The notes beneath the pieces are model-generated. The model was not told the origin of the DNA and did not search any database. It worked only from the letters and a program-made list of their open reading frames with translations. The position numbers were made by a program, and so were the translations under genes. Of a stretch of 64,000 nt of DNA, positions 1,440 to 19,396 are shown piece by piece. Position 1 is the stretch's first letter. Each line of letters begins with the position of its first letter. Source of the DNA: Bradyrhizobium ontarionense (GTDB taxonomy: Bacteria > Pseudomonadota > Alphaproteobacteria > Rhizobiales > Xanthobacteraceae); contig NZ_CP088156.1 of NCBI RefSeq assembly GCF_021088345.1, positions 1,922,001 through 1,986,000 of the forward strand, in the 5' to 3' direction.

Positions 1440-4400
1440 TTACGTCCTCGAATAATCGAATTTCGCCCAGTAGTCCGATTCCCAATTCGCGGGCTCGAAG
1501 CGCCAGCCGCGCTTCTTCCTCTCGGCTTTGTCTTTTGCGGTCGGGAAGTAGCTGCGAACCTGATCCGGATCCGGCGCATTCGCAGGTACAAAGGTCGCCC
1601 TGGAAGCGCGCACGAACTTCAGCGTTTCCGCACCGACTGGCGCGTCGAGCAGCACCAATCCTTGTGGCTGGTCCTGACCATTGCTTTCCGATTGGCCCTT
1701 CGAACCAGCGATGGTCTTTTCCATTCCCAGATGGACGTCGTAGCTGTACACCGTGACGTCGATCGAGACCGTAATTTCGCAATAGCCGTAGAGCAGCGAG
1801 TCGCTGCCGCTGCGGCGATAAGCCAGCGCCAGGAAGAACTCGACGCAGACATGGACAAGACCGAGCACATCGAGTTGACCGCCGGCACGAAGATAGCCGG
1901 CCAGCTCCGTCGATGAGTTGGTGATCTTCAGGTATCCGCCCGCCATCACATACAGGCCGCCGCTGGCGATCCCGATGTCGAAGGACAGCGCACCGCCGAA
2001 CTCGAGCGCGCCGATCAGCTCGCGGTTGCCGTTGCTCTCGAAGGCCGCGCTGAAATAGCCGCGGCCGGCGAATCCCATGACGCTGAGCTCAAACGGCTTC
2101 TCGAAGCTCGAAAACGCAAATTCATAGCGGAGCGTGCGATCGCCAAGCGGCAGGGCCAGCCCTGACTTCAGCGCCAGGTTGCGGCAACTGAATGCCCCGA
2201 ATGCGATCGGAGGTATCGTCGTGCTGCTCTTGACGTGGATGAAATCGGTGTCGATGCCGAGGTCGAGACCTCCGAACGACAAGCCGTTTTGCAGCGCTCC
2301 GAGGAATGCCAGCGGGCCGAGGAATTTGACCGGCTTGCTCGCCAGTATCGGTTTGACAGTGGGCGTCGGGATTGGTTGACCCGAAGTGTAGCTCGCTTGA
2401 ATCCGGAGTTCGGCGACCTGGACTTCCAGCAGGTCGAGCAGGTTGATCGCGATGACCGGTGTCTTTTGCCGGCCGGGACCCGGGTCTATCTGGGTCGGTT
2501 TTGGGCTGCCCTGAATCTTGCCGAGGAAGGCGTCCAGAGTCACAACCGCCTGCGGCTTTGCGCCACCGACGAGGTCTTTCGGCTTCGGGATATTGACCGT
2601 CGTCTTCGATGTGATGATGAGGCCGGCGGTAATGTCCGACACCGGAGCGAAGGTCAGAATGCCGAAATTCTGCCGTTTGACCGGAACAGCCCAGCTCCAG
2701 TTGCGCTCGATCTTTTCGGGAAGCTCGATGACGTTGATATCCGGCATCTGGCCGCGTCCGACCGCTGCAATGATCTTGCGCAGCGGGATGACGCCGAAGA
2801 CTTTCGCGTCCGGCACCGCGTCCGAAAGGTCGTTCGTGAATTTGTTGAAATCGGTTCGGGCGATCTCCTTGACTTTGTCCGCCGTCTGCGATGCGACCGC
2901 ACCAAGCTCGCGGGAGATGCCGCTGATCACTGTGCTCGGCTTGGCGAGGCCGTTTTTGATCTGGCCACCGATATCCTCGGCCTTGCCGATCGCCTCGGTC
3001 AATTTCGCATAGACGCCGTTCTGCGCCGACCTGAAACCGCCGGTGATGTAATCCTCGACCAGCTTGATCTCGCGTTCGGGAACATCGGGAAGCATGCCCT
3101 TGACAGCGGGAATAACGACCGAGGCGGCCTCGATGCCGGTGTGGAAAATTCCGGAACCGAATTTGGCGGCCTCGTCCCTGAATTTCTGATACTGGGCGAG
3201 ATACTCCTTCGACTTGGCCCGAAAGTCCGCAAGCGCCTTGTCGGCGTCCTTCTCGATTGCCTTGCTGGTTTCGATCAGCGCGCCGAGGGCATCAGCAATG
3301 CGGTGGCGTGCCGCCTCGTCGATCTTGTCGGCAAAGACATCCAGCCCGTCATGCAGATTCTTGATGAGCTGGTCGACGCCTTCGATCTTTGTGATCTTCG
3401 CCAACTCGGAGATCAGGCGATCGACGATCTCGACCTCGTGCTGGACGAAGTTGCTGGTGAACGTGATCGCCTTGGTCTCGAGCGTCGCGCCGAGTTCGTT
3501 GAGCTTCTTCAGTTTTGCGACGTAGCCGTCGGCGACGTGGAGCACGTCATCGACGACGCCGACGGTGACCGTGTCGAGCTCCTTGCCCAGCTTGTCGAGG
3601 AGATCCTTGCCGACGTCGGCAATCTTCTTGGTTTGCAGGTCGAGATCGCCCAGCGCATCTTTTGCCGCTTGGTTGATCTTCTGTTTCGCCTGATCGAGCG
3701 AGATCGGAGGATTTTTGCGCAGATCCTGGATCCGCTTCGGGACGGCGAGCGCGATCTGCGTCGACGGCCCCTTTTCGGGTGCGAAGGCGATCTTGCTGCT
3801 GGGAAACGGAATCGTGCGCTCGGCAGCGACCTTCTTGCCATACTGGCGGTGGCCCTTGACGATATTCGACGCGAACCAGAGCCTGGCATCAGGCGTGATC
3901 GACTTCTGGCCGCTTTCGTCCTCCACTTCGGTTTCCCACTTGACGATATCTTCGGTCGTTTCCAGCCGCGGCCAGAAGTACAAACCCTTGCCGCCGTCCG
4001 CGTCGGTTTCAATGGCGGGATCGGCGAGATCTGGTGAGCGTACCGTCCGCAGCGTCACGCGCTTGGCCGGCATCATCCGCCCGACCGGGTTGTCCGATCC
4101 GGCGTAGTTTTTGAGCGGATCCTGAACCAGGATGAATCGCCGCTTCAGCAGATAAGCGCCGGGCGCCGACAGGGCGGCCGCGTCCGTACCTTCGGCGTAA
4201 CTCACAAACTTCCGCTGTGTCAGTTCGACATAAATGGACGGGTGGCAGAACGGGAAAAGGAATCCGAAAAACGCTTCCACGAAGAACACGTCGCGCCCGA
4301 TGACGATGCGGTGCTTCCACATCCTGAGCTCGGTGCCGGGATCTCCCTTTTCCGCGATCTGTTCGCGGATGATCTCGTCGACGGTTTTCTGGCTCGCATA

Positions 4401-5558
4401 ATAGAAGTTGGCATCTGCCCCCATAGCGGTGAGGACCAGATGTTCGATATCGATCTGGCCGTCACCCTCCGACATCTGCCTGACCAGGCGATGTCGAGTG
4501 AGGGCGTGCAGCGACAACGGCCGTTCAGCCGGATAATAGAGCGAAAATCGAGGCTCGCTCTTGCGCTGGTAGTCGGGCGAGTACACGGCGCGCGCCTGCA
4601 GCACGACGCGCTTCGGTGGCGCCAGTTCCTCCGGAATATTCGTCGTGCCGGGCGGCAATCCCGCCGGCTTCACCGGATCACGGCTGGTGAGTGAGGCATT
4701 CCAGAGTTCGACCGGCTCGTCGATCCGCGGCGCGGACTCCGGTGGGGGAGCCCCGGCGCCGACTTTCGGACCCGCATCCTTCGGGGGAAGAATGCCGGCC
4801 TTCGATGGCTTCTTGCCGTATTTGGCGGTGTTCTGGTTCTTGGCGAGGAGCTGGTTGTAGCTGTCGGCGCCCGTCCGCCGGGCTGAAGTGCTGTCCTTGC
4901 GGGACAGGGCGGATGCAGAAAAGCGCGTGTTCGGCCCAGGCGAGATATAGAGCCGGAACGGAATTTCCAGCGCGGTCTCGGTCGACGTCGGCATCTGCGG
5001 AACGTAACGCTGGATCCCTGTCGGCGCCTGCGAAACCGTCGGCGGGATCGCGCCCCGCGGAACGCGCAAGGACAGCCGCTCCAGCGCCGGCCACCAGCTT
5101 TCCGGCTCATCCAGCTTGAATGGCTCCATGTGATCGGGGACATCGAAGACCACCCAACTCGGTCCCGAGATGAAACTTGAGACGGGCGGAACAGGACTGT
5201 TGCCGTGATTTTCGGCTTCCTTCAGCGGATCGTTCTCAAAACCGCTATTGGGAGCATGACGCTCGTCGAAGATCGCCTCAGCGAGGTTCTGCGGCGGGAA
5301 AATTACCGCGACCGACGATTGGCCAAGGCCGAGAGGCAGGAGATTGCCGTCCTTGCGCTCAAAGTTGATAAAGCGCACCTCGACATTGAGAAAATCTGTG
5401 TCGCGCAGCAATCGATACGCGAGCGTCGGCAGTCGTTCCATCGCGAAGCCCGGACCAAGGAGGCCGCCTTGCAGCGCAAGCCCCCCGGCTGTGGTAAGGC
5501 CAATCTTGAGGAAGTCTCGGCGAGATACGTTTTCGACGAATTGATGTTTCGAAGTCAT
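1440..5558 (-). CDS. Large Tat-exported protein with coiled-coil centre, function unknown
   Basis: This encodes 1372 residues starting at ATG 5558; an in-frame ATG at 5672 exists, but the Tat motif SRRDFLKIG followed by a hydrophobic stretch (residues about 11-35) fits the later start. Residues about 620-910 are a long run of Lys/Glu/Ala-rich heptads typical of an amphipathic coiled coil. Residues about 1096-1306 are glycine- and beta-rich (AGGYLKITNSSTELAGYLR, GLVHVCVEFFLALAY), suggesting a beta-sheet or barrel-like end domain. I do not recognise a named family. It heads a two-gene unit behind one of the GCGTGAA repeat sites and would be exported folded by the Tat pathway. Confidence 0.8.
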   Translation of the reverse strand: MTSKHQFVENVSRRDFLKIGLTTAGGLALQGGLLGPGFAMERLPTLAYRLLRDTDFLNVEVRFINFERKDGNLLPLGLGQSSVAVIFPPQNLAEAIFDERHAPNSGFENDPLKEAENHGNSPVPPVSSFISGPSWVVFDVPDHMEPFKLDEPESWWPALERLSLRVPRGAIPPTVSQAPTGIQRYVPQMPTSTETALEIPFRLYISPGPNTRFSASALSRKDSTSARRTGADSYNQLLAKNQNTAKYGKKPSKAGILPPKDAGPKVGAGAPPPESAPRIDEPVELWNASLTSRDPVKPAGLPPGTTNIPEELAPPKRVVLQARAVYSPDYQRKSEPRFSLYYPAERPLSLHALTRHRLVRQMSEGDGQIDIEHLVLTAMGADANFYYASQKTVDEIIREQIAEKGDPGTELRMWKHRIVIGRDVFFVEAFFGFLFPFCHPSIYVELTQRKFVSYAEGTDAAALSAPGAYLLKRRFILVQDPLKNYAGSDNPVGRMMPAKRVTLRTVRSPDLADPAIETDADGGKGLYFWPRLETTEDIVKWETEVEDESGQKSITPDARLWFASNIVKGHRQYGKKVAAERTIPFPSSKIAFAPEKGPSTQIALAVPKRIQDLRKNPPISLDQAKQKINQAAKDALGDLDLQTKKIADVGKDLLDKLGKELDTVTVGVVDDVLHVADGYVAKLKKLNELGATLETKAITFTSNFVQHEVEIVDRLISELAKITKIEGVDQLIKNLHDGLDVFADKIDEAARHRIADALGALIETSKAIEKDADKALADFRAKSKEYLAQYQKFRDEAAKFGSGIFHTGIEAASVVIPAVKGMLPDVPEREIKLVEDYITGGFRSAQNGVYAKLTEAIGKAEDIGGQIKNGLAKPSTVISGISRELGAVASQTADKVKEIARTDFNKFTNDLSDAVPDAKVFGVIPLRKIIAAVGRGQMPDINVIELPEKIERNWSWAVPVKRQNFGILTFAPVSDITAGLIITSKTTVNIPKPKDLVGGAKPQAVVTLDAFLGKIQGSPKPTQIDPGPGRQKTPVIAINLLDLLEVQVAELRIQASYTSGQPIPTPTVKPILASKPVKFLGPLAFLGALQNGLSFGGLDLGIDTDFIHVKSSTTIPPIAFGAFSCRNLALKSGLALPLGDRTLRYEFAFSSFEKPFELSVMGFAGRGYFSAAFESNGNRELIGALEFGGALSFDIGIASGGLYVMAGGYLKITNSSTELAGYLRAGGQLDVLGLVHVCVEFFLALAYRRSGSDSLLYGYCEITVSIDVTVYSYDVHLGMEKTIAGSKGQSESNGQDQPQGLVLLDAPVGAETLKFVRASRATFVPANAPDPDQVRSYFPTAKDKAERKKRGWRFEPANWESDYWAKFDYSRT

Positions 5559-5647
5559 TTTAAGATCCAATTGCAAGTGGCCGAACCGAACTTGCGCAAC
5601 GAGATTTCTGAAAATGCCAACCCGGGTATCGCGCCATTTCTCTCCAT
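5555..5647 (-). CDS. Short upstream ORF overlapping the Tat gene start
   Basis: A 30-codon ORF starts at ATG 5647 and ends in a TGA (5557-5555) that overlaps the ATG of the large Tat gene in an ATGA arrangement. A weak GGGAAG lies about 11 bases upstream. The peptide has one cysteine and no signal. The overlap would allow translational coupling. It may be a leader peptide or chance; the ATGA overlap is the only real evidence. Confidence 0.3.
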   Translation of the reverse strand: MERNGAIPGLAFSEISLRKFGSATCNWILK

Positions 5648-5723
5648 CACAGCAACGCTTCCCGGAGGTCACCCACAGCGACTGACCTCGACTGCGAAGT
5701 TATGGGGCGGTTCGGGGCGTGTC

Positions 5724-5838: not shown

Positions 5839-6858
5839 CTACTCGCATGTCGCAGTACTTGCTTGCGGCGTATCCCGCTGCTGCGTGAGGACCACCTGTC
5901 CATGCCACCAGCCACGCCACCTGTCATAGAACGGACCGCTCTCCAGCCGAAACTTGAACGTGACCTTGCTCCGGTCGCCCTGGATGTTCAGCACCTTGTC
6001 GAAGACCGCCGCAGCCGACGCCTCGGCGAGCCGCGCCGCCGTAATCTTCGAGCCGGGGTCTGCTTGAAAATCGATGCTGTAGGTCTTTGAGCTCTTGCCT
6101 TCCCGGTGCTCGTCAAAGGTCTCGTCGACCGCATAGGGCCGTTCGAAGATCGGGGCCTGTACCGCGCCGCCCCCGTCCGTAGACGCCGTGACCACGGTGA
6201 CGAATTCGGCCGGCGGCACCTCCAGCAGCGGCTTGGCAAACTGCAGCGGCATGAAATAGTCGAAATTCGGATAACCGCTACCGCCTGCAACGACGCCGAT
6301 GACGCAGCGTCCCGAGCCCAGCAGCACAGGACCTCCGCTCATGCCCGGCGCTAGTCCGACGTTCACGCCCATCGAACCCCTCGGTCCCGCGAGATTGGAC
6401 ACCACGCCAGGACGAACCTCGATGTCCTTTTTTTCCGGGAATCCATAGGCGGTCACATCGTCGAGCAGCTTGAAGACGTGATTGGCCCTAACCTTCAGGA
6501 ACGGCCAGTCCGATTTCAAATTAGGCGAAAACCTCAGAAGCGCGATGTCCGCCGACACGCTAGGCGTGGCTACGTCGAACAGCTGGTTGGGCGCAGCGGT
6601 TCGCGATTTCACCGCACCACGGATAAACCGGATCTTGCCCGCGGGTATCTCCGCATCAGATACGTGTTTTGCGGTCACCACCCAACCCGCCGGATGAACG
6701 ATGAAGCCGGTGCCTTCCCCGACGCTCTGGAATACCCCGTTCTCCATGTATCCAACTTCAATGAAGACCACGCTCGAGGTCGGCTCCGTCGCCCGTGCCG
6801 TGAAGCCTGGGATACCCAGCAGCCATGCGGCAACGAGGAGAACAAGCTTGCCCCGCAT
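5839..6858 (-). CDS. Secreted trypsin-like serine protease (S1 family)
   Basis: About 339 residues. A Sec signal peptide (residues about 1-24, ending in TARA) precedes a chymotrypsin-fold domain with the full triad: His in VVTAKHVSD, Asp in SADIALLRF, Ser in APGMSGGPVL. The remaining 100 residues after the protease core are not recognised. Two ATGs (6861, 6858) are possible; the second is better spaced from GGGGAGG. The start is only 8 bases from the stop of the astacin gene, so the two proteases form one unit and would act together outside the cytoplasm. Confidence 0.88.
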   Translation of the reverse strand: MRGKLVLLVAAWLLGIPGFTARATEPTSSVVFIEVGYMENGVFQSVGEGTGFIVHPAGWVVTAKHVSDAEIPAGKIRFIRGAVKSRTAAPNQLFDVATPSVSADIALLRFSPNLKSDWPFLKVRANHVFKLLDDVTAYGFPEKKDIEVRPGVVSNLAGPRGSMGVNVGLAPGMSGGPVLLGSGRCVIGVVAGGSGYPNFDYFMPLQFAKPLLEVPPAEFVTVVTASTDGGGAVQAPIFERPYAVDETFDEHREGKSSKTYSIDFQADPGSKITAARLAEASAAAVFDKVLNIQGDRSKVTFKFRLESGPFYDRWRGWWHGQVVLTQQRDTPQASTATCE

Positions 6859-6869
6859 CATCGCCTCCC

Positions 6870-7733
6870 CTACTTGTAGATGGAGTTGACGACGGCCGCG
6901 TCGCCCTTGCTGATGTGGTCGCGCTGCCCGATCTGCGTCCCCGGCGGAAGCGGCTGCGTCGCGACAATCGTCGGCTGGTTGTTGCAGGAAAACGCATACG
7001 CCCCGTAGTGCATGATCGAGTCGAGGTCATAAGATCCGGCGTCGGCGAAGTCTGCCGGATATTGCCTGAACTGGCCGCCATATCCGCGAATGATATTGGT
7101 AAACTGCACGCGGACATGGCTGGCGCGGTCGGTCCGGTTCTGCTCGTGATGCAGGCCGATGACATGACCGATCTCGTGCACGATCTGGCCAAAGGCACAG
7201 CCGTCCACCAGTTCCACGTTCTGCTCGCCCCCCATCATCCCCACCCCCATGGAGAGACAGGCCAGGGGATTCGAACCGACGGTGAAATACACATAGTTCG
7301 GATACTGACCGGCGTTTGCGGCAGTCCTTTCCTGGAACTTGAGCGCAGTCACGGCAGACCAGGCCGCCATTGCCTTCAGCACCGTGGCACCGCTAGCGAG
7401 TTTTGGATCAATGACGTAGGGCACGACACTGTTCGGCCATTTCTGCTGACCGGACAGGACCGATCGCGCGACGTAACCGAACGGCGTTATTTCGGACGCA
7501 CCAGCGGCATTCTTGTAGGTCAGCCTGATCGGCCCGCTCTGCGCCGCGAACGCGATCTGACTCGCATCCCCGATTACGATGTCGCCTTCAACGATGGCGT
7601 AGGTCCCGGACTTGATATAGGGCAGCACCTTGATCTGCCCATTGTCCTCGACCTCGACGGTCTTCGGCTCACCCCTCGCGTATTCCAGTCCATCAGACGC
7701 ACCCGCGGCCATTGCCGGCGCCCGCCGGGCCAT
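6870..7733 (-). CDS. Astacin-family (M12A) zinc metalloprotease
   Basis: The 287-codon frame holds the complete astacin zinc signature HEIGHVIGLHHEQNR (His186, Glu187, His190, Gly193, His196, Glu197) followed by the TDR typical of astacins and the Met-turn SIMHYG about 50 residues later. An N-terminal propeptide-like region precedes it. The ATG at 7733 has no convincing ribosome site and no signal peptide follows it; a proper signal peptide with a good ribosome site lies just upstream in another frame (7693-7809). Either a one-base error or a real frameshift has separated them. It is the first gene of the unit with the serine protease. Confidence 0.85.
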   Translation of the reverse strand: MARRAPAMAAGASDGLEYARGEPKTVEVEDNGQIKVLPYIKSGTYAIVEGDIVIGDASQIAFAAQSGPIRLTYKNAAGASEITPFGYVARSVLSGQQKWPNSVVPYVIDPKLASGATVLKAMAAWSAVTALKFQERTAANAGQYPNYVYFTVGSNPLACLSMGVGMMGGEQNVELVDGCAFGQIVHEIGHVIGLHHEQNRTDRASHVRVQFTNIIRGYGGQFRQYPADFADAGSYDLDSIMHYGAYAFSCNNQPTIVATQPLPPGTQIGQRDHISKGDAAVVNSIYK

Positions 7734-8039: not shown

Positions 8040-8072
8040 CCGAGGGCGGACCGCAGACCGATCCGCCCTCGG
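8040..8072 (-). terminator. Strong hairpin behind the small peptide gene
   Basis: CCGAGGGCGGA (8040-8050) and TCCGCCCTCGG (8062-8072) form a perfect 11-bp stem with an 11-base loop, starting 37 bases after the stop of the 49-codon peptide. No long U-tract follows, so it may be a weak terminator, an RNA 3'-end stabiliser or both. Apart from this hairpin and site 3, the stretch 7810-8109 holds nothing else I can support. Confidence 0.5.
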
Positions 8073-8109: not shown

Positions 8110-8259
8110 TCAACACAACGCCAGGCAGGCGGCGCGAGCGACGGGATCTCCAATTGCGTTGCAGATTGCCTCACAGACCCCTGACGGAGCGACATCGGCG
8201 GCAATCTTGGTCGGCGTCACCGTCCGTTGTACGGCTTTGGCTTGAGTGGGCATTTTCAT
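8110..8259 (-). CDS. Candidate RiPP precursor peptide with CX3C-X11-CX3C core
   Basis: A 49-codon ORF from ATG 8259 to TGA 8110, with an excellent ribosome site AGAGGA seven bases upstream. Residues 1-27 are a charged, cysteine-free leader-like segment (begins MKMPTQAKAVQRTVTP) with no secretion signal. Residues 28-49 are hydrophobic and contain all four cysteines (29, 33, 45, 49) as C-x3-C-x11-C-x3-C, ending on the last cysteine. It follows the PatA/PatG-type protease by 110 bases on the same strand and is itself followed by a strong hairpin. The layout (protease, short leader-core peptide) is that of a ribosomally made, processed peptide. No homologue is known to me; the function is inferred. 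Confidence 0.7.
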   Translation of the reverse strand: MKMPTQAKAVQRTVTPTKIAADVAPSGVCEAICNAIGDPVARAACLALC

Positions 8260-8369
8260 CTGTAAGTCCTCTTTGATCGGCTGGCCCGGGACGCGCAGCG
8301 GTTACATGTCTGCACTTATTTTCCGACCCCGCAGCGGCATGCAGTTCTTGGCCTCAAACCCAGTCCGGC

Positions 8370-10355
8370 TCACACGCGCTTGGTCCAGGTCCGGACGGTT
8401 CCGACCGTAACCGGAATGACGTCGCTGACGTCGACCGTGAAGCGGAACACCCGGTTCGCTGTGTTGGTGTTGTGCGGATTGAAGAACGACAATTCGACGT
8501 CGTAGCATTCGGAGTCGAGCCGGCAGATCGGACTCTTTTTGACCTGGATATCGTCCAGTTCCAGTTGCTGCTGCGTGGAGACTCGAATGACGTCGGCGAT
8601 CTGAACGGCGTTGGTCGCCGAATAATTCAGCGCCCGGTCCTCGCCGGTAATGCCGAGATTTCGCAAGTCGTAGTAAATCCGGTTCAGGAAATTGCCGAGC
8701 CCGCCGGCGAGCGAATCGAAAGTCTTCTGGGCTTCTGCCGCCTTTGGTCGCGGCCCCAGCACATGGCTTACCAGCGCCGGGGTCGCCCAACTGAACATGC
8801 CCCGCATCGAAGGTATAATCACCGGGACCACCTGTCCCGATTGCAGCCGAATGTTGCCGCCGATCACGGCGGGGATCGAAACCAGTTCGACGCCGTCGTT
8901 CAGTTGCCCGCGCAACAAGTCCAGCATGCGAGCGTAGCCTGCTGCAGCAAACGGGCCGGCCGGCTGAATGGCATAGATCGGCGTGACATCGACATTCAGG
9001 GTCCAGATCACCGATCCGGCTTCATAGATATTGTCGGCGAGATACGCCAGCAGTTGCTCGGGGAGCTGCGGATTGTTGGCACCGACCGGCATCGACTGAA
9101 TGAACGAATCGCGACGCGCCTCGGATCCAAAATCATATCCGAGTTTTCCGAGCGCATAGACGAACGGAGCCTTCTGAGCGGCAGTTCCTCCGCAACCGCA
9201 GCTCGATTTCTTCTCCGCTCCCCCGCAACCGCAGCCGCAATCCGACGGCGCGATGTCGGACATCGCGATTTCGGACATCGCGATACCGGCGGCGGGCGCA
9301 AAATCGTCCTGCCGGCGGATTGCTGCGCCATCGTCGCAGCGGATCCCGGATGCATCCAAGCCCGCTTCGTTCAATGAAAGAGTTTCAGCTTCGCTCATGC
9401 TCGTGGCTCCCCTCTGGATTTGATTGATTGCCTGTTGAATATTGATGCGGCCGGCCAGAACTCTCGAACATTCCTCGGCGCCGGACGGAATGCAGGGTGT
9501 TGCGGTTTTCAGCAGCGCCTCACGGACGGCTCGCGGGTTCGGCTGCGACCCGCTTTTGATCTGGACGCTGAGGAGGAGAGCGGCGACCCCCGACACCAAC
9601 GGCGCGGCGAAGCTGGTCCCGCTCTTTCGTGCGACGCCTCCCTGTAGCGCAGCACCCGGAATATTTGATCCGGGCGCAAGTATGCCCTGCTCGCGATAGG
9701 CCGAGCCCCAATTGCTCGAGGGCAACGGCTGACCTTGTTCGTCCATCGCGCCGACCGCCAGCACCGAGGAGACGGCCGCGGGAATATGTAGACAATCGCA
9801 ACCGTCATTGCCGGCCGCCGCCACGATCAGGACGTTTTGTCTGATACAGCTATCAATAGCCTGCGCCAGCACCGGATGCGGTTCGCTGGAATGGGCTAGT
9901 TGTCCGCCGCTGATATTAATGATGTGAGCGCCATTCTCGACCGCCAGCAGAATGGCGCGCGCCACGTCGAGCTGGGAACACCTCAGGCTATCGTCACCGA
10001 AAATCGGAATGATCAGGCCACGGCACAGCGGCGCCAGGCCCTCAACCGAGCTGCCCGGCTGACCGAAAATCAGGCTGGCAACATGCGTGCCGTGCGCTGT
10101 GGCCCCACCGTCCGCGGCCTTTGCGCTTGCGACCGTTTCGAGCCGGCGCACGCGCGTTCCCTGGAAGCAGTCATGGGTAAGGTCCACCGGGCCGTCCAGA
10201 ACAGCGATCATTACCTCCGGATCGCCTCGTCCGAGATACAGCGGAACCTTCCCCAGGAATGTCGCAGCGTCCCAGCCAGCCACCTTACCCCTCGCCAATT
10301 GCTGCGAAACGACACATCGACCACGCCATTCATCTGCTCCGGCAAGTCTCGACAC
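8370..10355 (-). CDS. PatA/PatG-family (cyanobactin maturation-like) subtilase
   Basis: 661 residues from a GTG at 10355. Residues 45-315 are an S8 domain: Asp54 (AVLDGPVDLTH), His88 (AHGTHVASLIFG), Asn183 (AAAGNDG), Ser248 (KSGTSFAAPLVSG). The LDGPVDLTH context is typical of PatA/PatG proteases that cut leader and follower from cyanobactin precursors. A cysteine-rich linker (SDCGCGCGG and SSCGCGG, residues 371-390) leads to a C-terminal domain resembling the PatG C-terminal module (VYALGKLGYDFGSEARRDSF). There is no signal peptide, so it is probably cytoplasmic. The GTG lies inside the upstream six-Cys ORF (26-base overlap), implying coupling. An internal ATG at 9398 with GGGGAG could yield the C-terminal half alone. 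Confidence 0.85.
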   Translation of the reverse strand: MSRLAGADEWRGRCVVSQQLARGKVAGWDAATFLGKVPLYLGRGDPEVMIAVLDGPVDLTHDCFQGTRVRRLETVASAKAADGGATAHGTHVASLIFGQPGSSVEGLAPLCRGLIIPIFGDDSLRCSQLDVARAILLAVENGAHIINISGGQLAHSSEPHPVLAQAIDSCIRQNVLIVAAAGNDGCDCLHIPAAVSSVLAVGAMDEQGQPLPSSNWGSAYREQGILAPGSNIPGAALQGGVARKSGTSFAAPLVSGVAALLLSVQIKSGSQPNPRAVREALLKTATPCIPSGAEECSRVLAGRINIQQAINQIQRGATSMSEAETLSLNEAGLDASGIRCDDGAAIRRQDDFAPAAGIAMSEIAMSDIAPSDCGCGCGGAEKKSSCGCGGTAAQKAPFVYALGKLGYDFGSEARRDSFIQSMPVGANNPQLPEQLLAYLADNIYEAGSVIWTLNVDVTPIYAIQPAGPFAAAGYARMLDLLRGQLNDGVELVSIPAVIGGNIRLQSGQVVPVIIPSMRGMFSWATPALVSHVLGPRPKAAEAQKTFDSLAGGLGNFLNRIYYDLRNLGITGEDRALNYSATNAVQIADVIRVSTQQQLELDDIQVKKSPICRLDSECYDVELSFFNPHNTNTANRVFRFTVDVSDVIPVTVGTVRTWTKRV

Positions 10356-10671
10356 AAAGCGACTCGCAAACGCTCACCAGCGGCCCCCCATTTCTCCGGC
10401 AGTCGCGGATACAGACAGGGACCTGGCATGGATCGGAGGCCGGATTGCGAGTGCTCGTGGCCGGCAAGTGCCTCGTGGCCCGGTTCAGCTGAAGATCCGC
10501 GGCTGTTGCGAACGAAAGCATTAGCCCCGAAAAACAGACCAGCAGCACAGCAACGGCAAACCTGTTTGCGGGGACGCCGACCCGGTTCACCGCCGCATTC
10601 TTGCGTTGCAAGAGTTGCCGATCAGCTCCCATGAACCCATCCCCAAACAACTTGCATTCGATCTCCGTCAT
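10330..10671 (-). CDS. Small secreted six-cysteine protein
   Basis: 113 residues from ATG 10671, which sits directly behind GAGGAGA; a second ATG at 10632 with GGGGATGG gives a shorter N-terminus. A signal peptide core (FAVAVLLVCFSGLMLSF) ends near ATAADLQ. The predicted mature part of about 56 residues has six cysteines spaced C-x4-C-x3-C-x10-C-x3-C-x3-C, the inner four sharing the CX3C-Xn-CX3C layout of the 49-residue peptide at 8110. It overlaps the start of the PatA/PatG-type protease. It could be a second substrate, an immunity-like partner or a defensin-like peptide; the family is not recognised. Confidence 0.65.
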   Translation of the reverse strand: MTEIECKLFGDGFMGADRQLLQRKNAAVNRVGVPANRFAVAVLLVCFSGLMLSFATAADLQLNRATRHLPATSTRNPASDPCQVPVCIRDCRRNGGPLVSVCESLCVETCRSR

Positions 10672-11927: not shown

Positions 11928-12028
11928 ATTCGATCAACAGCCCAGATTGCACCTTCGATCCCGTGCAGTTTATGGTAACAATAAGGCATACTGATAAGGC
12001 CTTACTGTAGTTGTTGGGAGATCGTCTG

Positions 12029-13888
12029 GTGCCGCCCGATAAGGGTTTCGAGGATGTTGGGCCGCTTCTGCGCCTGCGAGTATTCGGCGCGATGGAGGCG
12101 TGGAGTTGGTCCGGCGAGAGCGTTTTGCCACGCGGGCGCAAGGCGCAGGCGATCCTTGCCTACCTGGCATTTTCCGACGATGCCGCCGTCCCGCGCCAAC
12201 GCCTCATCAAATTGCTCTGGAGCAAGCGCTGGCACGAGCAGGCGCGGGCTAGCCTACGTCAAAGCCTGATGGAATTGAGGCGCTATGTCAGCGCCATCGA
12301 TCCGAAGCTGCTGCTGATCGAGAAGGATCGCGTCTCCCTGCAGAACGACAAGGTCTGGATCGACGGGATCGACGCCCGGTCTGCGCGTCAGACCGCGGTG
12401 CCGCCGGCCTCTCAGCGGGCTGACAGATTTCTTGAATCGTTGCGCGGACTGGACCCGGCATTCGACCAATGGATCGAGGCGCGATCGTCCAACCTGTTCC
12501 ATCAGGACGATGCGCCCGCCGCGTCCCGACCGGACGAGCCGTCCGCGCTGCTCGCCGTCCTGCCGGCGACCACCGGCGCCATCGACCCGGACTGCGAGGA
12601 AGATCCGGTCGCCCTGAACCCGCTAGAGGACCGGCGGCTGACGGTCGCCGTGACGCCCTTCATCAACGTCGACAGAGATTCGAGTGCCACGCATCTGTCG
12701 ATGGCGTTCACGCGGGAAATCGTCACCGCGCTCGCACGTTTCCGATGGTTCATCGTTCGCGTCGGAAGCATCGAGGAAGCGAAGCAAGCCGACTATCGGC
12801 TGGATGGTTCGGTGTCGGCTTCCGCGAAGGGCTACCGGGTTGCGTTTCGCCTGGTCGACTGCCGGACCGCCGAGCAGCCGGTCTGGGTGCACGAATGCGA
12901 TCTCGACCGGACGACCCTGCAGGATTTCCTTGGCAATGTCGCCGAACGCGTCGTCGAGCATGTCGACCCCGAGATCCTGTCGATCGAACTCAAACGCGCG
13001 CGAGTCAAGGCGTCGATCGACTGCGCGGCATACGAGTGCCTGCTGCGCGCAATCCATCTCGTCTACTCCTTTGAGCGGGATAACTGGAAGCTCGCCCGTA
13101 CCTTGCTCGAACAGGCGATCGCGAAGGACCCGCAGTTCGGCCGCGCCTATGCGGTCAGCGCCGTGGCACGCAGCACAGCGCTGTCGCAGGGCTGGATCGC
13201 TCCGACCGAAGCCGAGATCGAAACGCTGGATGCCTATGCGACCCGCGCGATCGCCTGCGATCCCCGCGACTCGATGGCACTGGCAGTCAGCGCCCACACC
13301 AGGCTGCGCGTGAAGCGGGACTTCGGCTATGCAATGCCTATCTACGAGCGTGCGCTCCAGCTAAACCCGAGCTGCGGATTCGCGTGGGGCTACTCCGCAC
13401 TCGCCCACGGATATCTCGGACACACCGAAGAGGCAATGCGCCGTCTGGCCCGGGCGCGCGACCTGATGGTCTGGGACTCGTTCGGCCAGTTTCTCGATTC
13501 CTTCGACATGCCGATATTCTATTGCAGCCGCGACTGGTCCAGGACGATCGCGCTTGGCGAACAGTTTTCGGCGCGCGGCGTGCGGGTCAACAACATGTAC
13601 AAGCTGTGGGTCGCCGCACTATGCCAGGTCGGCCGCTTTGCGGAGGCGCGACAGCACAACCGCGACGTCGTGCTGAAGGAGCCGGACTTTTCCTGGCGCC
13701 GCTTCATCGCCGGATATCCGTTCGGTCGGGAGCAGGACCGGTTGGAACTTGCCATTGCGATTGCCCGCGCCGGCCTGATCGACGATGCCGATGCCGTTCC
13801 TGCCGGAGAGACCTCGAACGTGGTGGCGCTTCCCGGTAACGGGCTGCGGCGCGCCGGTCGCACGCCACCGTTCGAGCGCGACGTATGA
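12029..13888 (+). CDS. SARP/BTAD-type transcriptional regulator with TPR domain
   Basis: About 619 residues from GTG 12029, eight bases after GGGAG (a TTG at 12011 is also in frame). Residues about 15-105 form an OmpR-like winged helix of the SARP type (LRLRVFGAMEAW, RKAQAILAYLAFS, WHEQARASLRQSLMELR). A central segment (LTVAVTPFINVD to LDGSVSASAKGYRVAFRLVD) resembles the TolB/FlgO-like part of adenylate-cyclase-associated regulators. The C-terminal half is TPR helices. SARP proteins activate by binding heptamer repeats with an 11-bp period near the -35; four such sites lie upstream of the adjacent units, so this is the likely local activator. Confidence 0.85.
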   Translation: MPPDKGFEDVGPLLRLRVFGAMEAWSWSGESVLPRGRKAQAILAYLAFSDDAAVPRQRLIKLLWSKRWHEQARASLRQSLMELRRYVSAIDPKLLLIEKDRVSLQNDKVWIDGIDARSARQTAVPPASQRADRFLESLRGLDPAFDQWIEARSSNLFHQDDAPAASRPDEPSALLAVLPATTGAIDPDCEEDPVALNPLEDRRLTVAVTPFINVDRDSSATHLSMAFTREIVTALARFRWFIVRVGSIEEAKQADYRLDGSVSASAKGYRVAFRLVDCRTAEQPVWVHECDLDRTTLQDFLGNVAERVVEHVDPEILSIELKRARVKASIDCAAYECLLRAIHLVYSFERDNWKLARTLLEQAIAKDPQFGRAYAVSAVARSTALSQGWIAPTEAEIETLDAYATRAIACDPRDSMALAVSAHTRLRVKRDFGYAMPIYERALQLNPSCGFAWGYSALAHGYLGHTEEAMRRLARARDLMVWDSFGQFLDSFDMPIFYCSRDWSRTIALGEQFSARGVRVNNMYKLWVAALCQVGRFAEARQHNRDVVLKEPDFSWRRFIAGYPFGREQDRLELAIAIARAGLIDDADAVPAGETSNVVALPGNGLRRAGRTPPFERDV

Positions 13889-13956: not shown

Positions 13957-15003
13957 ATGAACAAGTCTCTGACGTTTCCACCCTACGGACGCATGGTCGC
14001 CGAGTTCGAAGAGCGCGTCGGACAGGGCGAGCCGCCAACCGACTGGAACGCCGACGACAACTGGCCGTTGTGGCGCGACAAGATGTTGGAAATCATCACG
14101 ACGCTGTTGTGGCCGGTCTACGATTTCTCGACCCTGAGCTGGCAGGGCCCCGCCACCACGCGGATGCTCGGTTTGACCGAGGCGGATTTCGAGCTCTTTA
14201 CGGGGTTGCGGCCCTACAACAGGCAGGATGTTCCAGGCCTTGCCAAGCCGCGTCAGCATTTCGAGCTGTTCCAGATGGAAGATCACGCCGAGGACAAGCT
14301 CGACCATGACGCCGGCGTCGATCGCGGCGTGGATCTGACGTTGCGATATTATCTCGAAGGTCATGCCGACAAGCTGACCACCGATACCCTCGCAAACTGG
14401 GTCGAATCCGGAATGCTCCGCAAGGCCGGAGGGCTTCCGGTTCAGCTCAAGCAGTTCCTGCAGCGGCCCCGCGCCTATCAGATGTCGGATTCGATGGGCA
14501 AGAGCTGGTTCACCTATCACCAGGCGCTGCAGTCGGTCTCGCCGTCCATGATCAGCGGTCACTGCTTCAAGGGGTGCACGCTGGGCATGGCTGCTGTCTA
14601 TCACGCCACCGCGCTGGGGTGCGAACCGCGGGTGTTCGACGCCCTGACCCGGCTCTGCGTGGATTTCGGCGACCGACGGGTCTTTGCCGGCGTGCACTAT
14701 CCGAGCGACAACCTCTCCTCGTGGATCACTGCCATGCTGATCGCCAAGCATGTATGCGCCGCCGATAGCGGCCGCCTCGGCCGCAAGTTCCTGTGGAACG
14801 CGATCTCGACCAAGAGCGTGGTTCATGCCGCGATCGGCAACGCCATTGCACTCGGTCAGGCACCGGACCACGCACCGGCGTTTGAGTTGCTGAACCAGTT
14901 GGGCGCTAACCCCGACATGGACATCGACGACGCGCTTGCATTCGCGAAGTCGATCGCAAAGCCAAGATCGGAGCCGCTCTCGCCAGCCAACGCCGCGGAG
15001 TAA
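13957..15003 (+). CDS. PAP2 / vanadium-haloperoxidase-fold protein
   Basis: 348 residues from ATG 13957, seven bases after GGGGAG. It carries the three phosphate/vanadate-binding motifs of the PAP2 superfamily: KQFLQRPRAY, PSMISGH, and RRVFAGVHYPSD. There are no clear transmembrane helices or signal peptide, which fits the soluble haloperoxidase/acid-phosphatase branch better than the membrane lipid phosphatases. It follows the regulator by 68 bases on the same strand. It may halogenate or dephosphorylate a product of the neighbouring cluster; the substrate cannot be read from sequence. Confidence 0.82.
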   Translation: MNKSLTFPPYGRMVAEFEERVGQGEPPTDWNADDNWPLWRDKMLEIITTLLWPVYDFSTLSWQGPATTRMLGLTEADFELFTGLRPYNRQDVPGLAKPRQHFELFQMEDHAEDKLDHDAGVDRGVDLTLRYYLEGHADKLTTDTLANWVESGMLRKAGGLPVQLKQFLQRPRAYQMSDSMGKSWFTYHQALQSVSPSMISGHCFKGCTLGMAAVYHATALGCEPRVFDALTRLCVDFGDRRVFAGVHYPSDNLSSWITAMLIAKHVCAADSGRLGRKFLWNAISTKSVVHAAIGNAIALGQAPDHAPAFELLNQLGANPDMDIDDALAFAKSIAKPRSEPLSPANAAE

Positions 15004-15025
15004 CCGCGGACCGGGCAAGTCAGGC

Positions 15026-16558
15026 TTATTTCCACTTCGCGAGGTAGAAACGTGGCAGCTCGTCGGAATACGGCGTGAAGTCGAGCTGCCGGGAGACACC
15101 ATAGGTCGTCACATAGGTGTGCAGTGGCACCCAGTAGGCCTGTTCGGTGATGCGCTGCAGCGCCATCGAATAAGCTTTCTTGCGCACCTCCGGATCGTTC
15201 GATGATCCGCCCTCGATCAGCCATTTCTGGACGTCGGTGTCGCGCGCATAATCGTCCGCGCCGCCGTCGAAGAAATTGGGAAGAATGGCGGCGACGTCGT
15301 TGATCGAATAGCTGCCCCAGCTTCCGAGATGCATGCGCAATTCGCCGGCCTTCGCGCGCTGGATCAGGGCTGCGACCTGGAGCTGGTTGAGCTTGGCGCG
15401 AATGCCGACCGCGAGAAGGTAGTTCTGCACGGCGGCACCCCACTGCGGCAGCACGTAGCTGGCGAGCTCGACGTCAAAGCCGCTGGCGTAGCCAGCCTCG
15501 GCAAGCAGTTCCCTCGCCTTCGCCGGATTGTAATCGTAGACCGTGAGTTCGCCATCGCAGCCAAACTGCGACGGGACACATGGCGCGAGCGGAACGCGGC
15601 TCCCCCCGGTAACCAGCTTGTCGGCAATCGCTTTGCGGTCGATGGCGTAAAAGATCGCCTGGCGCACCTTGAGCTTGGTCATGGGATTGTCGGCACCGGT
15701 GCGGCCACCGGCATCGAGCGAGAGATAGCCGATCCGCATCGACTCCTTACGCATCGCCTCGAGATGCGGCATCCGGTTCACGGGCTCGAACTGGTCCGGA
15801 TTCAGGTTCCAGATCCAGTCGGCGCGGCCGGCCAGCAATTCCGTCATCTCGGTCGCAGCATCCGGCACGAAGCGCACGCTCAGCTTCGCGATCGCCGGCC
15901 GGCCCTTGGGGCTGCCGGCCCAGTAATCCTCGAACCGTTCGAAGTCGATCGAGATGCCGGGTTCGACCTTGACGATCTTGTAGGGACCGGTGCCGATCGG
16001 TGCCTTGGCGTAACCTTCCGCACCGACCTTCTCGCGATATGCTTTGGGATAGATCGGAAGCACCAGCGCGAAATATTCAAGCGCAGCGGGGGTCGCCCGC
16101 TTGAGCTTGACACGCACGGAAAGCTCACCGGTCTTCTCCGCCTTTTCGATCCAGACGTAATTGGACGGGGTCGACACCCGGCTCGCCGGATCGGACACGA
16201 GGTTGATCGTATAAACCACGTCGTCGGCCGTGAACGGGCTACCGTCGTGGAACTTGACCCCCGGCCGCAGCGCAAACTCGATCGTGGTCGGGTCCGGCCG
16301 CTTCCATTCGGTTGCGAGCAACGGTTCGATCTTGAAGGTGATCGGGTCGCGGTAGACCAGCGTGTCCCAGCCTTGGTGATGCATCACCACGCCGGTGCGC
16401 AGATTGTTGTAATAGGGATCGATGTTCGGCAGTGCGTCGCGCATCACGATCCGCAATGTATCGGCGGATTTCTGCCCGGCTGCCGGCACAGCGCCAACAA
16501 CCATCGCCGCGAGGATCGCGGCACCGAGCCTCAGATGCAGGCGCATGGCACGTTCCAT
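15026..16558 (-). CDS. Peptide-type ABC transporter substrate-binding protein
   Basis: About 510 residues of the SBP_bac_5 (DppA/OppA) family: Sec signal peptide (AAILAAMVVGAVPAAG), family motif GVKFHDGSPFTADDVVYTI, and the usual LRIVMRDALPNIDPY opening of the mature chain. It binds oligopeptides, nickel or similar solutes in the periplasm. It is the last gene of a five-gene importer operon, 47 bases after the OppF-like ATPase. Starts at GTG 16567, ATG 16558 and ATG 16546 are all possible; the signal peptide is intact in each. Confidence 0.92.
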   Translation of the reverse strand: MERAMRLHLRLGAAILAAMVVGAVPAAGQKSADTLRIVMRDALPNIDPYYNNLRTGVVMHHQGWDTLVYRDPITFKIEPLLATEWKRPDPTTIEFALRPGVKFHDGSPFTADDVVYTINLVSDPASRVSTPSNYVWIEKAEKTGELSVRVKLKRATPAALEYFALVLPIYPKAYREKVGAEGYAKAPIGTGPYKIVKVEPGISIDFERFEDYWAGSPKGRPAIAKLSVRFVPDAATEMTELLAGRADWIWNLNPDQFEPVNRMPHLEAMRKESMRIGYLSLDAGGRTGADNPMTKLKVRQAIFYAIDRKAIADKLVTGGSRVPLAPCVPSQFGCDGELTVYDYNPAKARELLAEAGYASGFDVELASYVLPQWGAAVQNYLLAVGIRAKLNQLQVAALIQRAKAGELRMHLGSWGSYSINDVAAILPNFFDGGADDYARDTDVQKWLIEGGSSNDPEVRKKAYSMALQRITEQAYWVPLHTYVTTYGVSRQLDFTPYSDELPRFYLAKWK

Positions 16559-16605
16559 CCATCTCACTTGCTGACCGGCCTGACCCAGGCCCTATGAGGC
16601 ATGCC

Positions 16606-17556
16606 TTATGCCAGATGGCACTCTACCATCGTCCCCGCAGCCCCGGCCATAGGCACCGGCGCCGCAGTGCGGCAGCGTTCGACCGCCATGCGGCAGCGCG
16701 GATTGAACCGGCAGCCCGCGGGAATGTTGGCGGGATCGGGCATGACATCGCCGAGGCCAATGTCCGGCACGCCGCGGCCCGGCTCCGGCGTCAGTACGCT
16801 TTGCATCAAGGCCTGCGTATAGGGATGCCGGGGCGCGCGAAACAACGCCTCGGTCTCGTTGCGCTCGACGATGCGGCCGAGATACATCACCGCGACTTCG
16901 CTCGACACGTGCTCGACCACCGCCAGATTGTGACTGATGATGAGGTAGGTCAAACCGAGATTGCGGCGAAGTTCGGCCAGCAGATTGAGGATTTGCGCCT
17001 GTACCGAAACGTCGAGCGCGCTGGTCGGCTCATCGCAGATCACGATCCGCGGCTCCAGCACTAGCGCGCGCGCAATCGCCGCCCGTTGGCGTTGCCCGCC
17101 AGACAATTGCGACGGCATCTGCTCGCCCATCGCCGCCGAGAGCCCGACGCGCTCGAGAATCCCGGCAACCCGGCGCTCGATCTCGGCGCGCGAGAAGGTG
17201 CCCTGCGCCGTCAGCGGCAGGGCGACAATATCCTTGATGCGCTGGCGCGGATTGAGCGAAGCGAACGGATCCTGGAATACCGGCTGGATCAGCCGGGCAC
17301 GCGCCTTGCGGTCGAGGTCGAACAGGTACTTGCCGTCGACCAGCGCGGTGCCCGCTGTCGGCTTGAGCAGTCCGAGGATCAGACGCGCGAGCGTCGATTT
17401 CCCGCAACCGGATTCGCCAACAACGCCGAGCACGCTACCCGCCGGTACACTGAAGGTGACATCGTCAACCGCGATCACCCCCTTCGTCGCCCACAGCAGG
17501 CCTGAGCGCGAGGGGAATTCGCATCGCAGATTCCGGACTTCGATCGTGGCGCTCAT
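16606..17556 (-). CDS. ABC transporter ATP-binding protein, OppF/DppF type
   Basis: 316 residues from ATG 17556, overlapping the stop of the upstream ATPase as ATGA. Walker [10 protein letters not shown], signature LSGGQRQRAAIARAL, Walker B RIVICDEPTSALD and the C-terminal oligopeptide-transporter extension with a cysteine cluster (GCRFNPRC) identify it as the second ATPase of a peptide importer. It powers transport with the DppD-like partner upstream. Confidence 0.94.
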   Translation of the reverse strand: MSATIEVRNLRCEFPSRSGLLWATKGVIAVDDVTFSVPAGSVLGVVGESGCGKSTLARLILGLLKPTAGTALVDGKYLFDLDRKARARLIQPVFQDPFASLNPRQRIKDIVALPLTAQGTFSRAEIERRVAGILERVGLSAAMGEQMPSQLSGGQRQRAAIARALVLEPRIVICDEPTSALDVSVQAQILNLLAELRRNLGLTYLIISHNLAVVEHVSSEVAVMYLGRIVERNETEALFRAPRHPYTQALMQSVLTPEPGRGVPDIGLGDVMPDPANIPAGCRFNPRCRMAVERCRTAAPVPMAGAAGTMVECHLA

Positions 17557-18533
17557 TCCGGTTGCCGCTCCCGAAGTCCCGGCGCCAGCCGGCACAGATA
17601 GTCGTGCGCGCTGCCGGCTAGGTGGCGCGGCACCTCGCGCACGCAGCTATCGTCCGCATCGGAGCAGCGCGAACGAAACGCACAACCGGAAAATCCGGGC
17701 ACGATCGCCGATACCGAGCCCGGGATCGAGCCGAGCGGTTGATCGCGCCGTACCCGGCCCGGCACCGGCACGCAGGACAACAAGCCACGCGTATAGGGGT
17801 GTTGCGGCGCGCCGAACAACTCCGCCGTCGGAGCACGCTCGACCACCTCGCCGGCATACATCACCGACACCCGGTCGGCGACACGTGCGACGATGCCGAG
17901 ATCGTGAGTGATCAACAGGATTGATAGCCCGAGTTCGCGTTTGAGTGTGGCCAACAGCCGCAGGATCTGCGCCTGGACGGTAACATCCAGCGCGGTGGTC
18001 GGTTCGTCGGCGATCAGCAATTCGGGCTCGCACATCAACGCCATCGCGATCATGACCCGCTGACGCAATCCGCCCGAGAGCTGGTGCGGAAACTGGCCGA
18101 CCCGCATCCCCGGCGCGGTGATGGCGACGCGGTCCATCAGTTCGACCGCCCGGTCGAGTGCCACGGCACGGGAGACGCCCTTGTGACGCGTCAGCACCTC
18201 CGCCATTTGCGAGCCAACCGTAAAGGCCGGGTTGAGGCTGGTCATCGGTTCCTGGAAGATCATCGACATGCGGTTGCCGCGGAGGCGGGCCATCTCGCGC
18301 TCCGATAGCGACAGCAGATCGGCGTCGGCAAAGCGCATGCGCTTTGCCGAAAAGCGGCCGCCGCGCGCGAGCAGGTTCATGACCGCCAGGACAGTCACCG
18401 ACTTGCCGCAGCCAGATTCGCCGACCAGGCAATGGATCTCTCCCTTCGCGACCTCGAACGAGGCGCCGCGCACCGCTGCGATCCGGTTCTCGAACGTCAC
18501 CTCCAGACCATCGATCTCCAGCAGCGCGCTCAT
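17553..18533 (-). CDS. ABC transporter ATP-binding protein, OppD/DppD type
   Basis: 326 residues. The frame is open further upstream, but ATG 18533 ([14 protein letters not shown]) overlaps the permease stop as ATGA and is the natural start. Walker A GESGCGKS, signature [15 protein letters not shown], Walker [19 protein letters not shown], and the C-terminal GCAFRSRC cysteine motif of the family are present. It pairs with the OppF-like ATPase. Confidence 0.94.
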
Positions 18534-19396
18534 CGCGACCGCTCCGCGCCGAGCCAATTGCGCAGTCCGTCGCCGACCAGATTGATGCCGAGCACCAGAA
18601 CGAACAAGGCGACGCCGGGGATCATGATCACCCAGGGCGAGAAGAACATATAGTCCTTGCCCTCGGCGATCATCAGGCCCCATGACGGCAACGGTGGCGG
18701 CACGCCGAGACCGAGAAACGACAACGCCGCCTCGAGCAGGATCGCCAGCGCCATTTCCAGCGTCGCCACCACGGCCAGATGGCTGGCGATGTTCGGAAGG
18801 ATCTCCTTGATCAGCAGATGCGACGTCGAGGCGCCGGCGCAGCGGGCGGCGTCGACGTAGTCGAGATGCCGGATCTGCATGGTGGTGGCGCGCGCCACGA
18901 CGGCGAAGCGGTCCCATAACAACAGACCAAGCGTCGCGACGACGAGCCCAAGGCCCGCCCCCATCAGTCCGACCACCGCGAGCGCAACCAGCACCACCGG
19001 GATCGACAGCCGTGTCGTGATGGCGAACAGCACGAAATCATCGACGAACCCGCCGAAGAAGCCGCCGAGCACGCCGAGGGTGATGCCGATCATGCCCGAC
19101 GTGATCACCGTCATAAGGCCGATCAGCAGCGAAATGCGCGCGCCATAGACGAGCCGGGCGAGATAGTCGCGGCCGAGTTGATCGGTGCCGAGCGGGTGTT
19201 CGGGCTGGCTGCCCTCCATCCAGAATGGCGGCTTGAGACGGTTACCGAGATCCTGGGTGAACGGGTCCTGCGGCACCAAGTGATTACCGACCAGCGCAAC
19301 CACGACGATGAGGCCGACGATCGCGATCCCGATCGCAAAGCCAACGCCGCCTACGCGGGACGTCAGCGACGCACGAATGGCAATCGGCCCGCTCAT
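18530..19396 (-). CDS. ABC transporter permease, OppC/DppC type
   Basis: 288 residues from ATG 19396, overlapping the DppB-like stop as ATGA. About six membrane helices; the first follows [17 protein letters not shown]. The cytoplasmic loop [20 protein letters not shown] is the EAA motif that contacts the ATPase. [19 protein letters not shown] near residue 70 is characteristic of DppC proteins. Confidence 0.94.

Follow-up and report, generated by a model that had tools for sequence, protein, structure and literature searches.

The window analysed here, a stretch of 64,000 nucleotides from Bradyrhizobium ontarionense, carries a 49-codon open reading frame that probably encodes a ribosomal precursor peptide, from which a PatA-only, cyanobactin-derived pathway would release an unmodified two-disulfide α-hairpin. 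An earlier note on this DNA had already read the frame as a ribosomal precursor tied to a PatA/PatG-type protease, and the leader profile, the motif ahead of the core and the adjacency of the protease all support that reading. The computations gave a leader and a cleavage-like motif shared with other precursors, a PatA-type protease next door that is PatA-like in its matches, a genome with no YcaO and a core with a helix-turn-helix model.

In the mechanism that we propose, the precursor would be made together with its protease. The PatA-type subtilase would read a cyanobactin-like leader and cut after an xVxPS-type motif, ADVAPS|GVCEAICNAIGDPVARAACLALC, that is after S26, to give a 23-residue peptide. 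We infer that this 23-mer is exported from the cell and presume that its two disulfides close once it meets an oxidising compartment, with C29/C33 and C45/C49 clamping the two helices of the folded core. The product would carry no heterocycles and would not be cyclised head to tail; its role would most likely be antimicrobial, signalling being the other candidate. The system would be one member of a branch of the cyanobactin machinery that works with PatA only, in which a single protease serves one to several precursors with a constant leader and a variable core.

The probable precursor gene and its signals

The frame, MKMPTQAKAVQRTVTPTKIAADVAPSGVCEAICNAIGDPVARAACLALC, lies at 8110..8259 and is read on the minus strand from 8259 to 8110, as the list of open reading frames and a coordinate check agree; the 49-codon frame of the earlier note, whose strand had been left unstated, is therefore real. 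The ribosome-binding-site-like hexamer AGAGGA (8267..8272, minus strand) ends exactly seven bases before the ATG, as had been described. All four cysteines are confined to the last 21 residues and the C-terminal residue is itself a cysteine, again in keeping with the first description; they are residues 29, 33, 45 and 49, which gives the spacing CX3C-X11-CX3C. A hairpin at 8040..8072, to which no strand is assigned and which may mark the end of the transcript, starts 37 nt past the precursor stop. This hairpin had been given as 11 bp long; it exists, but its arms are 14 nt (8040-8053 and 8059-8072, 93% complementary). The folding energy over 53 nt is -31.9 kcal/mol, with a z of -5.2 against 200 shuffles, and no strong U-run follows the hairpin.

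Only two of the 744 window frames of at least 25 aa carry C-X3-C-X9-12-C-X3-C with no other cysteine in between, in a spacing range picked after the peptide was seen: the precursor itself and a frame on the far side of the protease. The codon composition of the precursor frame is unremarkable (GC1-3 of 0.61/0.57/0.63) and would not, taken alone, reveal the gene.

The adjacent protease

Directly upstream of the precursor and in the same direction (8370..10355, minus strand) lies the gene of a 661-aa PatA-type protease, composed of an S8 subtilase domain, PatG_D and PatG_C; 110 nt separate its stop from the precursor frame behind it. The protein scores 696 bits against TIGR03895. Its S8 domain matches the solved structures 4h6w (336 bits), 4h6v (331 bits) and 4h6x (165 bits), and its C-terminal part matches 4uvq; we take these four to be PagA, PatA, the PatG protease and the PatG domain of unknown function, respectively. 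Since 4h6w and 4h6v are N-terminal cyanobactin proteases and 4h6x is a thiazoline oxidase/protease chain, the enzyme is, judged by sequence matches, PatA-like (a leader cutter) rather than PatG-like (a macrocyclase). The earlier assignment to a PatA/PatG type is thereby confirmed for the family and narrowed, by the bits of the structure matches, to its PatA-like side. The second protease of the same genome, at locus L045, has the same preference and scores about twice as high against the N-terminal cyanobactin proteases as against the PatG chain, and a third TIGR03895 match in this genome is weak (74 bits, below cut-off). In a tree of 26 proteases, several branches of which are long or weakly supported, the window enzyme falls with those of L051, L054 and L045 (support 95/87), while the true cyanobactin proteases fall elsewhere. 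Between the S8 and PatG_D domains of the window protease there is a Cys-Gly-rich linker of the CGCGCGG type, and the L045 protease has one likewise.

At the thresholds used, TIGR03895 matches occur in 5/249 genomes of the order, 2/398 of the phylum, 32/265 of the genus, 1/4 of the genus of G549 and 6/397 of a wider sample of the order; these samples overlap, and all except that of the G549 genus include the genome of the window. With the window protease as query, matches were found in 2/385 genomes of the class, the own genome included, and one scan for related loci returned two, both cyanobacterial. Other genomes of the genus either are without this protease type or have other types.

The leader and the cleavage-like motif

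The leader (residues 1-26, 8182..8259, minus strand), the end of which is placed by the motif before the core, is modelled by AlphaFold2 with low confidence. Near its start stands a recognition-like motif, MPTQAKAVQR (residues 3-12, 8224..8253, minus strand), which related precursors have in common in a form near PxQxxPVxR. P4, Q6 and R12 are invariant in 16/16 rows of our alignment A1; a precursor not included in A1 has A in place of the leader P, and the window leader has A9 against P in most relatives. At the other end, DVAPS (residues 22-26, 8182..8196, minus strand) resembles a PatA-type cleavage site, and the cut would be expected after S26. The available part of PMC10885120 gives the PatA cleavage consensus as G(L/V)E(A/P)S; the DVAPS|G of the window precursor is like this site without being identical to it, with D22 against G in PatA sites. 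Most relatives have a short hydrophobic-x-P/A-S/D/N motif directly ahead of the core, as in GVEPS|GC of L054 and in GVTPS of the true cyanobactin precursor of L046, and the deviants have QS (L050, L084, L053) or NPQ (L055-L059) instead of PS.

A leader-only profile was built from 15 precursors of other genomes, including the cyanobactin-like one of L048, which were chosen with the motif in mind. Among the 944 open reading frames of the window and L045, it ranks the window frame and four L045 frames in places 1-5 (E 4e-5 to 0.005; the next at 0.42), with the window leader third. Applied unchanged to L084, a locus fetched later, it gives the top place among 138 frames (E 4e-6) to one that lies 384 nt behind the protease, and second place to another L084 frame, at E 0.1. 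At E 0.1 the profile has no match in L006, L007, L052, L057 and L065, and a single L069 match (E 7e-4), on the upstream side of the protease, appears spurious. A strict pattern of leader plus site occurs 22 times within 1.7 kb downstream of the proteases of 21 loci, against 0 occurrences in 653,734 other strand-bases of these loci. It is absent at 10/21 loci (L052, L006, L007, L063, L069 and L055-L059); looser searches find candidates at nine of these ten (L063, L006, L052, L069, L055, L056, L058, L059 and L057), those of L055, L056, L058 and L059 being weak profile matches (E 0.04-0.08), and at L007 they find none. Because both the strict pattern and the training precursors were chosen after the motif had been seen, the profile and pattern tests are not wholly independent. 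The profile of A1 has five matches in the own genome, all beside PatA-type proteases and all themselves rows of A1; the best family matches among the 16 rows, TIGR03678 (E 3e-7) and DUF5837 (E 1e-13), probably come from the cyanobactin-like L048 row. At the level of the family, the leader and the cleavage-like motif are found again next to related proteases, and at that level the reading withstands the refutation that the earlier note had set.

Related loci and their precursors

Judged by their sequences, related loci are found in Cyanobacteria, in Streptomyces and in the window's own order; the DNA of the window itself matches proteobacterial plasmids, which fits a proteobacterium. With the peptide as query, the own genome yields, after the peptide itself, a weak full-length match (E 0.08) and three others at E 1.2 to 8.9. 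The match at E 0.08 adjoins the second PatA-type protease, at L045, where four small frames start with M(R/K)LPxQxxPVxR and two of the four have CX3C-X10-CX3C. The expectation that the cysteine spacing would recur beside related proteases thus holds for these two; elsewhere there are other cysteine frameworks. Small frames with a similar leader lie downstream of the protease at L050, L051, L054, L049 and L084 (two at each), at L063 of Acaryochloris, L064 of Gloeocapsa and L070 of Nostoc (one at each) and, several at each, on the Streptomyces plasmids L066-L069. L052 has three Cys-rich frames whose start is only vaguely similar and which the profile does not match; L053, where the protease is in pieces, has two candidate precursors, and L071 has one, 387 nt behind an 833-aa protease frame. 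The cores are of the types CX3C-X10/11-CX3C, 8-Cys, CC-C-C and Cys-free helices, with a predicted length of 23 residues in the window and about 10-55 elsewhere.

The Streptomyces plasmids L066, L067, L068 and L069 carry tandem precursors with near-identical leaders and a GVEA(N/D/A) or GIEPS-type motif. Their cores are short, hydrophobic and helical, for example FLPLLGALGSLLF and NLFDIIKSLF, and are reminiscent of amphibian skin peptides; those precursors that are present in the gene tables are called hypothetical. Long PatA-like proteases, mostly of about 840-870 aa, are found at L055-L059 and at the short loci L020-L044; the neighbourhood is common to all five of L055-L059, each with a small downstream precursor that has a variable helical core. 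Two precursors, at 7202-7375 of L053 and 6324-6500 of L054 (both minus strand), have very similar Cys-rich cores, SDCCGxGxCCVGACxPFxGxCAGxCVPNIGQC, a further framework whose hosts belong to different families. In the window's own genus, L046, L047 and L048 are true cyanobactin-like clusters with two proteases, YcaO and L(A/S)ELSEETL precursors, and the precursors of L046 and L047 have AYSG tails.

The predicted core

The predicted mature core, GVCEAICNAIGDPVARAACLALC (8113..8181, minus strand), would consist of two helices with two cysteine pairs, a picture drawn from the sequence, AlphaFold2 and Foldseek. AlphaFold2 (three sequences) places helices at residues 26-34 and 39-48 with a short turn between them (pTM 0.38); mean pLDDT is 91 over residues 31-40 and 89 over 41-49, and is low in the leader region, at 55, 48 and 65 for residues 1-10, 11-20 and 21-30. 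The 8-Cys relative of L054 is likewise modelled as helical, with moderate confidence (no residue at or above 90) and a low-confidence leader. Foldseek returned 13 matches, among them Nigellin-1.1, the Ara h 1 leader and Tk-hefu, which superpose at 0.8-1.0 Å over 24 columns and which we take to be hairpin peptides; these hairpin-peptide matches are not significant (E 5-9), and it is from their superpositions that an antiparallel packing of the predicted helices is read.

Plant α-hairpinins combine CX3C-Xn-CX3C with two helices, and their disulfides join C1-C4 and C2-C3. The window peptide is like them (Nigellin-1.1, the Ara h 1 leader) and like Tk-hefu in its cysteine spacing and, by prediction only, in its two helices. 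There is, however, no credible sequence relation, the structural matches fall short of significance, and the window peptide would be freed by a PatA-type protease if our reading holds; the resemblance is likely a convergence. Sequence searches of solved structures with the window peptide gave nothing credible, no NCBIfam or Pfam family matching it was found, and the cyanobactin family models do not match it at E 0.1. Ser and Thr are absent from core residues 27-49. An oxazole product was ruled out on this ground, and so was a lanthipeptide, the core having no Ser/Thr and ending at a cysteine.

Modifying enzymes and the relation to cyanobactins

The one-contig genome has 0 YcaO matches at E 1e-5, which extends to the whole genome what had first been noticed for the window. 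Together with the two predicted helices, this absence is consistent with the earlier preference for a helical hairpin over a heterocyclised cyanobactin. The YcaO search covered nine genomes, G1267, G120 and G1093 lying outside it: G040, G090 and G549 have none (E 1e-5), G087 has one on another contig, and G789 has two on other contigs, with its protease on a contig of 5 kb, too short for adjacency of protease and YcaO to be judged.

The window resembles the cyanobactin pathway (PatA/PatE/PatG of the patellamides; TIGR03895) in its PatA-type S8 protease with PatG-type C-terminal domains and in its short precursor, which has a conserved leader and, before a hypervariable core, a motif related but not identical to G(L/V)E(A/P)S. 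It differs in having no YcaO, no L(A/S)ELSEETL, no C-terminal recognition tail and no PatG-like macrocyclase, both above-cut-off TIGR03895 proteases of the genome being PatA-like. No residue follows the last cysteine for a macrocyclase to remove, and the core suggests not a small ring but a peptide that is folded or helical. The L(A/S)ELSEETL element missing from the window leader is carried by the precursors of the YcaO clusters in the same genus and is, we assume, the heterocyclase-docking RSI. Anacyclamides and piricyclamides (TIGR04446) share with the window a PQxxxPVxR leader and the lack of heterocyclisation, but they are macrocyclised once a C-terminal signal has been removed, and the window peptide has no such tail. 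Two PatA-only precursors match TIGR04446 weakly, below cut-off (E 0.05 and 0.08), and the cyanobacterial locus L006 has frames that resemble, by eye, anacyclamide/piricyclamide-type precursors.

The RSI has a role in directing heterocyclisation, according to passages of PMC4663559. The papers found treat cyanobactin proteases outside cyanobacteria only in passing, as far as the available sections go: a cyanobactin peptidase gene is mentioned for Roseomonas (PMC8776678) and cyanobactin-like genes for Saccharopolyspora (PMC10145562). A description of PatA-only precursors was not found in the open-access literature, the scope of the search, which left aside subscription papers and preprints.

Alternative explanations

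The same protease family (TIGR03895, 696 bits), the related leader and the cleavage-like motif would also fit an orthodox cyanobactin, with cysteines heterocyclised by YcaO and/or a chain macrocyclised head to tail by PatG in trans. True clusters with YcaO exist in the same genus (L046, L047, L048), and cyanobactins that lack a heterocyclase are known from the accessible parts of PMC4663559 and PMC4603692. Such a product is nevertheless quite unlikely here: the one-contig genome has no YcaO, both above-cut-off proteases score roughly twice as high with the N-terminal proteases as with the PatG chain, and the precursor has neither L(A/S)ELSEETL nor a tail after its last cysteine. We regard as very unlikely a metal-binding or redox microprotein that would hold Zn or Cu in its cysteine pairs and be regulated or degraded by the protease. 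Precursors with the same leader have other cysteine frameworks or Cys-free helical cores, so that metal binding is not a common theme, and most precursors have the cut-like motif directly before the core; against this, CX3C pairs can bind metals, and the protease has its own Cys-Gly-rich CGCGCGG-type linker.

Conservation of the leader motif beside a protease might also point to an inhibitor or a propeptide acting in trans, the leader filling the active site and the hairpin acting like the α-hairpinin trypsin inhibitors of plants; some plant α-hairpinins do inhibit serine proteases. Many loci, however, combine several precursors of unrelated cores with one protease, which fits substrates better and makes an inhibitor highly improbable. 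Finally, the frame is short, has an unremarkable codon composition and has no direct ortholog in the genomes searched, as would a chance frame with no product; that it is one is hardly credible in view of the leader-profile result, its position, the ribosome-binding-like site and the five own-genome A1 matches, all of them A1 rows, that lie without exception beside PatA-type proteases.

Orthologues and codon-level constraint

For the reading of the frame as a PatA-released precursor, conservation has to be sought among paralogues and family members, because a strict ortholog was found neither in 257 genomes of the genus (A1 profile) nor at the fetched loci. In the 257 genomes, the A1 search picked up the five precursors of the own genome, the one already known from L048 (G726) and four weak matches, one of which, L074, sits opposite a long frame. 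The codon-level constraint that the earlier note had looked for is seen where orthologues exist; the window frame itself has no ortholog from which to read it. The 8-Cys precursors of L051 and L054 have 23/19/49 differences at first, second and third codon positions. Among the long-protease loci of the genus (L020-L044, L055-L059), an intact small frame with the leader SPIQCEGIERG is present in 17/30 stretches; many of the remaining stretches may stop short of the gene. With five genomes represented twice, the 17 stretches stand for 14 of 25 genomes; 12 of the 17 frames are distinct at the DNA level, with a mean dN of 0.088 and dS of 0.37 (66 pairs). The eight distinct peptides vary in 7/41 leader and site columns as against 14/23 core columns, the conserved leader and variable core that had been anticipated.

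Implications

PatA/PatG-family proteases are read as cyanobactin markers. The Acaryochloris and Gloeocapsa relatives are annotated as cyanobactin maturation proteases, and no YcaO is listed in the stretches seen, for which the gene table is incomplete. In the present case unmodified peptides, disulfide-rich or helical, seem to be released by the same leader logic, and the marker would therefore point to a varied peptide pool, the precursor genes of which, in the relatives, are either missing from gene tables or listed as hypothetical. We see about an even chance that a lone PatA-type protease, unaided by any modifying enzyme, serves bacteria in several phyla as a general means of releasing defence-like peptides that are folded or helical. 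These would include α-hairpins, the 8-Cys and CC-C-C frameworks, and the short hydrophobic helices of Streptomyces and of the genus of the window. Such peptides would form a separate class, set by their leader and protease and not by their chemistry, of which orthodox cyanobactins may be an elaborated form. One protease with swappable cores is also a simple natural system for studying leader recognition by a PatA enzyme and for working out the function of the conserved PatG-type domain, which the structure paper of that domain left open, as far as the portion available tells (PMC4259220).

Neighbouring genes

On the other side of the protease, and overlapping its start by 26 nt, lies a possible second Cys-hairpin protein (10330..10671, minus strand; the frame extends to 10755, with the likely start at 10671) with a CX4CX3C-X10-CX3CX3C tail. 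By eye, a signal-peptide-like segment precedes this tail, and the protein is not among the 14 best leader-profile matches. It is possibly a Sec-exported partner or immunity factor, with a putative link to the precursor system. Downstream of the precursor, in the same direction (minus strand), follow an astacin metalloprotease (6870-7733; LegP model, below cut-off), a trypsin-like protease (5839-6861) and a protein of 1410 aa that shows a weak TAT-signal match (1440-5672). A wider operon that would take in the astacin, trypsin-like, ferritin-like and 1410-aa genes was set aside, as none of these was matched among 17 other loci.

The all-against-all comparison with these 17 loci used rough gene calls and missed the L045 protease, for which the opposite strand was chosen. 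Two window genes further off are shared in it: 16606-17595 with L048 and L051, from a transporter-like family that is common, and 12011-13888 with L047. Housekeeping, transposase, metalloprotease and unknown genes make up the twenty neighbours scanned from L045, L050, L051, L052, L054, L084 and the window, and no exporter, immunity or disulfide-forming gene common to the loci appears among the neighbours compared and scanned. A reprolysin-like metalloprotease is encoded near the L084 locus. In the window itself, genes of an oligopeptide/dipeptide-type ABC transporter lie at about 15000-20000, about 5 kb past the upstream end of the locus; this is a common gene set, and it might move peptides.
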